Notes under the pieces: model-generated
Seen by the model: the letters and a program-made list of their open reading frames with translations, nothing else
The model's database searches: none
Told to the model about the DNA's origin: nothing
Translations under genes and position numbers: made by a program
NCBI GenBank assembly: GCA_039794565.1
Contig: JAUQVX010000002.1
Location: 254,126 to 318,125 of the forward strand
Direction: 5' to 3'
DNA: 64,000 bases
DNA from: Gloeomargarita sp. SRBZ-1_bins_9
Lineage (GTDB): Bacteria; Cyanobacteriota; Cyanobacteriia; Gloeomargaritales; Gloeomargaritaceae
In this document: piece by piece, positions 32,461 through 54,818 of the stretch
Layout of the letters: each line of letters begins with the position of its first letter
Numbering within the stretch: the first letter of the stretch is position 1

Positions 32461-35587
<3,127 letters not shown>

Positions 35588-35700
35588 AACCAAGGCCACA
35601 GAACAATCCTGTTCTATTGTGCCATGGCCCATCCCCCTGTTTTGCCCCCTAAAGTTTAAGGGGAACCGGTTACCCAGCCCCCCTTTCCGTGTTTAACAAG

Positions 35701-35771
35701 CAGAACCTTTATGGCGCTGGTTCTGATTGATACCCCTATTGAAGGTAGGAACCTTTATAGCGCTGGTTCCT
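35701..35771. repeat. Two near-identical hairpin repeats with compensatory stem changes
   Basis: On the plus strand, CAGAACC-TTTATGGCGCT-GGTTCTG spans 35701-35725 and AGGAACC-TTTATAGCGCT-GGTTCCT spans 35747-35771. Each has a 7-bp perfect stem and an 11-base loop that differs at one position. In the stems the two outermost base pairs differ on both sides in a way that keeps pairing (C-G versus A-T, A-T versus G-C). The copies are 21 bases apart in the gap between dnaJ and lepA. A related near-palindrome, GGGGAACCGGTTACCC, lies at about 35659-35674. They could be part of a lepA leader or a small REP-like repeat pair. Confidence 0.85.
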
Positions 35772-35848
35772 TTCTCAACCCTGTTTTTTAGTATGGCCTA
35801 CCCAACAACCGTTCCCCGGGATTTTTAATCATCTCTTTAGGTTGGAGG

Positions 35849-36742
35849 TTACGGTTGGGGTTTCTGGTCCCGGCGGGGGTTAAAGCGCTCCATCTGGCGG
35901 ATTTTTTCGTAGAGTTGTAGTTCTTCTGGGGACAGTTCGGTGGGGATTTGGATCACCACCTCCACAATCTGGTCGCCGCGGGTGCCGTCTTCCCGGGGAT
36001 AACCGCGACCTGGCAGGCGCAGCCGCTGGTGGTTCTGGACGCGGGGGGGAATCGTCAGTTTAACCGTGCCGTCCAAGGTGGGGACGGGTATTTGGGCGCC
36101 CAGGATGGCCTCGCTGGGGGTCACGGGCACTGTGCAGTAAATGTCGTCGCCCTCTAGACGCAGGTGTTCGTCGGGGGTGACGTAAATCTTGAGGTACAGA
36201 TCGCCGCCGTTTTCCCCCTGGTGGCGCAGGCGGATGCGTTGTCCGGTGACCATGCCGGGGGGCAAATTCACCTCCAGGGTACGTCCCCCAATACTCAGGC
36301 GCTGGCGCCCACCCCGATAGGCCTGGTGCAGGGACAGGTGCAAGCGAGCCTCGATGTCCGCCGGGCCGTTGTCGTCCCAGTCGGGTGGAGGGGGCGAGCC
36401 GTTGCGACGGGTAAAGCGGGTCAACAACTGGTCCAAAAAGTCCTGGAAGTCGGCAAAACGCCCGTAGTCAAAGGCGCTGCTGCCCCGGGGCGGCGGTTCC
36501 CCCTGGAAGCCCTTTTGCTGCCAGTACTGGCCATAGCGGTTGTACTCGGCCCGCTTTTCGCTGTCGGAGAGCACCTGGTAGGCCTCGCCGATGATTTTGA
36601 ACATTTCCTCGGCCTGCTTGTCCCCCGGGTTCAAGTCGGGATGGTACTTCCGGGCCAGTTGCCGGTAGGCGCGCTTGATCTCGGCCAAGCTGGCGTTGCG
36701 GTCCACCCCGAGGATTTGGTAGTAGTTGCGGAAGTTGCGCAT
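35849..36742 (-). CDS. DnaJ-type J-domain cochaperone (zinc-finger-free)
   Basis: A 297-residue Hsp40. The J domain (about 1-70) has [20 protein letters not shown] and the HPD motif in [11 protein letters not shown] short Gly/Pro/Phe linker follows, then the DnaJ C-terminal substrate-binding domains ([60 protein letters not shown]). There is no CxxCxGxG zinc finger, so this is a CbpA-like type II protein. It begins 4 bases after the dnaK stop and is probably cotranscribed with it, acting as its ATPase activator. ATG 36742 gives the standard N-terminus. Confidence 0.93.
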
Positions 36743-54623: not shown

Positions 54624-54818
54624 GGGTTTGGTCGGTCGTGCGTGGAGGAGGAGGCAGGCCTAGCGAGTAAATCACCCCCAAAAATTTTTGATCGTTGACC
54701 GCAGACTGCAGGTGGCTGATGCGTAAATCCTGCCGAGGTCAGTCCAAAGTGCCCCGCTGGGGGTGGCGTTGGATATGGCCCGGCGTATCTTGACCGGGTT
54801 TTTTATTTGGGAGGGCCT
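54624..54818 (+). ncRNA. Ribosomal protein L10 leader (rplJ 5' untranslated region)
   Basis: The 195-base gap between rplA and rplJ holds sequence typical of the L10 leader, in which L10(L12) binds a kink-turn and represses translation. Visible are CTGCCGAGGTCAGTCC (about 54730-54745) and a late hairpin with CCCGG (54779-54783) pairing CCGGG (54794-54798) followed by six T, a possible attenuator. GGGAGGG lies before the rplJ ATG. The boundaries are approximate; the leader is inferred from position and these features, not from a covariance search. Confidence 0.68.
54779..54804 (+). terminator. Attenuator-like hairpin before rplJ
   Basis: CCCGG and CCGGG pair across a 10-base loop and are followed by TTTTTT, 15 bases upstream of the rplJ ATG. 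The position inside the L10 leader suggests a partial terminator that could lower rplJL transcription, but the short stem makes full termination unlikely. Confidence 0.55.

Follow-up and report, generated by a model that had tools for sequence, protein, structure and literature searches.

A twin-hairpin locus downstream of dnaJ in Gloeomargarita is probably a small RNA gene with relatives in most cyanobacteria

Results

Twin hairpins between dnaJ and lepA

The window analysed here is a stretch of 64,000 nucleotides from Gloeomargarita sp. SRBZ-1_bins_9 (contig JAUQVX010000002.1, forward strand). Two 25 nt hairpins lie between dnaJ and lepA, each with a 7 bp stem and an 11 nt loop (Table 1); in the register of the second-hairpin search described below, their spacing is 22 nt. 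On the plus strand, positions 35747-35771 read AGGAACC-TTTATAGCGCT-GGTTCCT and positions 35701-35725 read CAGAACC-TTTATGGCGCT-GGTTCTG. The loops differ once (A or G), while the outermost stem pair is A-T in the former and C-G in the latter, and the next pair G-C and A-T, respectively, with pairing intact in both hairpins. This confirms the coordinates, stems, loops, single loop difference and compensatory outer pairs reported in a first-pass annotation of the window; a near-palindrome also mentioned there proved to be a separate, terminator-like hairpin with a GNRA loop (third hairpin in Table 1).

Along the minus strand, the upstream element is followed by the extended -10 box, the two hairpins (1 before 2) and the terminator-like hairpin. 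A covariance model built from the seven genus sequences (R1) matches the locus at G000:C2:289776-289913, equivalent to window positions 35651-35788. The predicted RNA, with its 5'-end placed by the -10 box and its 3'-end by the terminator hairpin, has a fold z of -3.1.

Table 1. Features of the dnaJ-lepA region, in window coordinates. R1 to R3 are the models described in the text.
Feature	Position	Strand	Basis or remark
dnaJ, upstream gene	35849..36739	-	kept neighbour within the genus
Upstream promoter element, two 11-bp direct repeats AAAnATwAnGA, here CAACCTAAAGAGATGATTAAAAAT	35821..35844	-	about -61 to -38
-10 box CATACT (family consensus TGn[C/G]ATnnT)	35790..35795	-	conserved in the family
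Predicted small RNA, ~133 nt	35651..35783	-	R1 model match, fold z
Hairpin 1, AGGAACC-AGCGCTATAAA-GGTTCCT	35747..35771	-	inspection, genus alignment, R2 match
Hairpin 2, CAGAACC-AGCGCCATAAA-GGTTCTG	35701..35725	-	inspection, genus alignment, partial R3 match
Third hairpin, GGGGGGCTGG-GTAA-CCGGTTCCCC, GNRA loop, terminator-like	35660..35683	-	genus conservation
T-rich tail TTAAACTTTA, 3' of the third hairpin	35650..35659	-	TTTT-type tails in relatives
lepA, downstream gene	33776..35587	-	neighbour not conserved

A lone palindrome of the form GAACC-N9..13-GGTTC is not rare in the window: two were found against 0.58 expected, and 14 of 100 shuffles reached this number. The loop-specific pattern gave eight matches in the seven genus genomes, every one just downstream of dnaJ, and its reversed control gave none in the same genomes. 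The search for further copies that had been suggested in the first-pass annotation left the twins alone in their own genome, where no copies beyond the two hairpins were found. Genome G002 carries a repeat, AATCTTTTTGTCGCTGGTT, in four identical copies (C1:1069895, 2286864, 2646154 and 2803690), which probably belongs to an insertion element and has nothing to do with the hairpins.

The unit is conserved within the genus independently of the next gene

The regions 3' of dnaJ were alignable across all seven genus genomes, and the hairpin unit is found downstream of dnaJ in each of them, whichever gene comes next. The parts common to the genus are the AT-rich motif ATAAAGAAATAATTAA shortly past the dnaJ stop codon, 28-29 unconserved nt and a -10-like box, followed in all seven genomes by hairpin 1, hairpin 2, the third hairpin and a T-rich run. 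The GC-rich third hairpin, present in 7/7 genomes, has two pairs changed on both sides and carries a GNRA-type loop in some of them, including our own; a simple terminator scan did not flag it, and the T-run is short in this genome. A putative outer helix around hairpin 1 (P0), whose pairs mostly form across the genus without both-side changes, was excluded.

Only in two of the seven genomes, our own and G006, is lepA next to the unit, and lepA has a conserved promoter-like sequence of its own, ATGGCACAATAGA, immediately upstream of its start. This implies that the unit belongs neither to lepA nor necessarily to dnaJ, and it speaks against the RNA leader of lepA that had been proposed from the window. 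In a sister genus of the same family (G007), a twin-hairpin RNA (L245) is located at a different locus away from dnaJ, so the gene has moved with its two modules retained.

Related hairpins occur across most cyanobacterial genera

R1 had matches in 71 of the 390 class genomes searched, spread over 25 genera. Common to these matches are the upstream motif, a -10 box and a single hairpin built as GGrnyC-AGCnn(nn)AUAAA-GrnyCU, whose stems include GAACC/GGTTC, GAGCC/GGCTC, GGACC/GGTCC, GGATC/GATCC and GAATC/GATTC. A pattern scan of named genomes, which includes about as many chance matches as expected, gave matches in Pseudanabaena (many), Kamptonema, Phormidium tenue, Tildeniella, Lyngbya confervoides and others, as well as in one Thermosynechococcaceae and one Acaryochloridaceae MAG.

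A second covariance model, R2, was trained on 45 members from other cyanobacteria, with no genus sequence among them, and matched 270 of the 390 class genomes (~70%) and 125 of 160 genera. Its best match is the locus downstream of dnaJ in 7/7 genus genomes (E values from 2e-5 to 0.016; window 35732-35847 in our genome, E=0.00116, with a modest score), and hairpin 2 gives a second, partial match in several of them. When genomes were drawn from the whole phylum, R2 matched 117 of 386, all of the same class among the matches listed; among the unmatched genomes listed are many of a family with small genomes (f2), which probably represents the marine picocyanobacteria. The RNA family has a member in Synechocystis, and probably one in Synechococcus elongatus.

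Across these relatives the loop is nearly fixed, AGCnn(nn)AUAAA, with a length of 9-12 nt, and the stem varies freely. By inspection there is no conserved reading frame: a small peptide was rejected because differences in loop length disrupt the frame and the one AUG that recurs disappears wherever the outer pair is C-G or A-U. In many families represented in alignment A4 (see below), the single-stranded sequence AAnnAUAAAUCCCUGUGAAUAC is conserved 3' of the hairpin and may be a second functional site.

At gathering score, no Rfam 15 family matches the hairpin locus or 12 related loci. The only Rfam match in the window is the Ribosomal protein L10 leader (RF00557) at 54681-54814 (+), with a score of 44.5 against a gathering score of 44. 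A search for the loop sequence in the running text of the literature found no match. Lists of predicted or mapped small RNAs are available for Nostoc and Synechocystis (PMC4734099, PMC5386190), and it is possible that the RNA is already an unnamed entry in such a published transcript list. As regards Rfam 15, the earlier statement that no named repeat with this loop is known is correct, but rather than being a local feature the element is part of a cyanobacteria-wide RNA family.

Stem pairs covary throughout the family

In A3, an alignment of members that we collected ourselves and selected partly for pairing, 52 cells are changed on both sides. A4 consists mostly of loci outside the training members of R2 and contains 62 full-length members; here 86 cells are changed on both sides and 6/7 pairs covary. 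Because a structure-fitted alignment biases toward pairing, a sequence-only model, R3, was built and the members were realigned with it. R3 recovered all 62 loci and 11 second hairpins (73 rows), including hairpin 2 of our locus (L250). In the resulting alignment 99.2% of the cells are paired and 6/7 pairs covary, with 98 both-side changes, a count which like those of A3 and A4 leans upward, since related sequences were counted repeatedly and R2 had served to find the loci in the first place. None of 500 shuffles reached the score or the percentage, and slid controls remained below 55% paired. This lean has no influence on the recurrent switches that neighbouring pairs show in different families.

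Covariation is thus present beyond the two copies, also in the alignment made blind to structure, and the selection on structure that had been read from the twins is far more strongly supported than two copies could show. Altogether, these hairpins almost certainly represent a real structured RNA family.

The hairpin module is doubled in the Gloeomargarita family

Most relatives have a single hairpin. In 12 of the 62 members, from three families, a further hairpin with a loop of the same type follows 22-29 nt downstream (0.08% in the shuffled control), a number that leaves out a 13th call, L283, judged to be probably spurious. All eight genomes of the Gloeomargarita family, second genus included, have twins at a constant spacing of 22 nt; the others belong to two further families. 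The twin hairpins correspond to a doubled hairpin module in the Gloeomargarita-type family.

In Pseudanabaena (L127, L133, L137, L144, L153, L154 and others), there are often two tandem small RNA genes ~300-350 bp apart, which differ in their stems (GGAGCC/GGCTCT and GGAATC/GATTCT) and are alike in loop design and promoter.

Conserved promoter signals precede the hairpins

In the 62 full-length members, the A at position 2 and the T at position 6 of the -10 box are invariant, and the box ([C/G]ATnnT) is preceded one base up by an almost invariant G (TGn), while the -35 region is unconserved. A 24-bp upstream element at about -61 to -38 is conserved over the same members of A4. It has an 11-bp period (z=3.08, reached in 0.2% of column shuffles), and in 7/7 genus genomes a spacer of 28-29 unconserved nt connects it to the -10 box. 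The exact upstream motif occurs once per genome, at the locus downstream of dnaJ, in six of the seven genus genomes.

The extended -10 box and the upstream element at a fixed position point to a promoter of the predicted small RNA gene itself. Direct repeats of 10-11 bp are typical for response regulators of the PhoB/OmpR type. As a tandem of direct repeats with this period near a promoter, the upstream element has the properties of a binding site for such a regulator, as predicted from its sequence.

Gene neighbourhood and alternative explanations

Outside the genus the neighbours differ. Across the set of 109 members, the gene that follows most closely shares the strand of the RNA in 65 and is convergent in 37 of 102 cases, so the RNA is not only a leader. 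As assigned by simple motif recognition, proB lies downstream on the same strand in 26/109 members and yqeG upstream in 16/109. Loci at which proB (glutamate 5-kinase) comes after the small RNA gene include L229, L230, L233, L264, L265, L290, L291 and L293; in some proB cases only a few tens of bases (~25 nt in some) separate the terminator from the start codon. Transcription of proB driven by the small RNA promoter is possible in such lineages, and with proB on the same strand in those 26 members a cis role is possible there. The overall pattern fits a free-standing small RNA which may additionally drive proB in some lineages.

One alternative is that the RNA works in cis, as a leader or riboswitch-like attenuator (of proB in many cyanobacteria) with the terminator-like hairpin as the switch; this would account for the succession of promoter, hairpin and terminator-like hairpin upstream of same-strand proB, some within ~25 nt. 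However, the next gene is convergent in over one third of the members and is not conserved within the genus, Pseudanabaena has tandem copies, and no alternative antiterminator pairing is visible, which makes this explanation improbable. We consider it just as improbable that the unit is a processed 3'-UTR element of the dnaJ mRNA, a stability element or terminator cluster lacking its own promoter. Within the genus the unit is always close behind dnaJ and ends in a terminator-like hairpin, as such an element would, but outside the genus it adjoins other genes and was absent from the dnaJ 3' regions examined in other families, and the upstream element and the -10 box are kept at fixed spacing across families. 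A mobile or REP/MITE-like repeat (a mobile or REP-like unit in the first-pass annotation) and the pair of protein-binding DNA palindromes, also considered there, are suggested by the short tandem inverted repeats but hardly credible, with two copies in our genome and a single locus per genus genome, and because the distance between half-sites ranges from 9 to 12 bp, a difference of up to 3 bp, and yet the loop sequence, which is asymmetric, is conserved.

Discussion

The locus between dnaJ and lepA is probably a small RNA gene belonging to a family found across most cyanobacteria, as judged from sequence comparison, and the predicted RNA is very likely transcribed independently. We envisage that a response regulator of the PhoB/OmpR type would activate the promoter and that an RNA of ~90-135 nt, ~133 nt at the locus described here, would be made. 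The constant loop together with the conserved single-stranded AAnnAUAAAU after the loop would constitute the active part, which most likely would either pair with target mRNAs or be gripped by an RNA-binding protein, and doubling of the module would provide a higher dose or avidity. Action in trans by base pairing has, in our judgement, nearly an even chance; action by protein binding appears rather unlikely, and cis action on the next gene unlikely. Tentatively, this could be a near phylum-wide, undescribed regulatory RNA under PhoB/OmpR-type control, whose loop is the dock for a partner, either a protein or a set of mRNAs, and whose doubling tunes strength.

Several known RNAs share features with this family. 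PsrR1/SyR1, a trans-encoded small RNA of cyanobacteria, is likewise intergenic, ~130 nt long and widely conserved in the phylum, and its own promoter and terminator resemble the predicted promoter and the terminator-like hairpin found here. However, the Synechocystis PsrR1 locus, located via the published probe, is without the hairpin or the loop, and the family member lies at another locus; PsrR1, the strongest known candidate by upstream-element position and RNA length, was therefore rejected, its Synechocystis sequence being unrelated. Yfr1 and Yfr2 are also cyanobacterial small RNAs of phylum scale with a fixed loop or single-stranded motif, but their motifs are different, that of Yfr1 being CACUCCUCACACC (PMC4734099), and no Rfam match was obtained on the hairpin locus or the 12 related loci. 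RNAs of the CsrB/CsrC type resemble the twins in that a single RNA carries a small hairpin several times, always with the same loop, but the family described here usually has one or two hairpins and is without the GGA loop motif; in Rfam, CsrC is below threshold in the window, with a weak line (E=0.17) that falls on the terminator hairpin.

Ncr0700/PmgR1 and Sye_sRNA1 are abundant conserved cyanobacterial small RNAs as well, set apart here by their published neighbours: Ncr0700 adjoins the transposase ssr2227 (PMC5386190), and Sye_sRNA1 is located 3' of psbD or cobB (PMC6091082). In Synechocystis, the member of the present family follows a pseudouridine-synthase-like gene, as read from the sequence, and faces a convergent gene.

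The locus illustrates the duplication of a functional RNA hairpin as a module. With a member in Synechocystis and probably another in Synechococcus elongatus, the family can be studied in strains that are easy to manipulate genetically. To our knowledge, few small RNAs span most of the cyanobacterial phylum, and a structured RNA without an Rfam entry that occurs in ~70% of the searched genomes would make a candidate for a core regulator.
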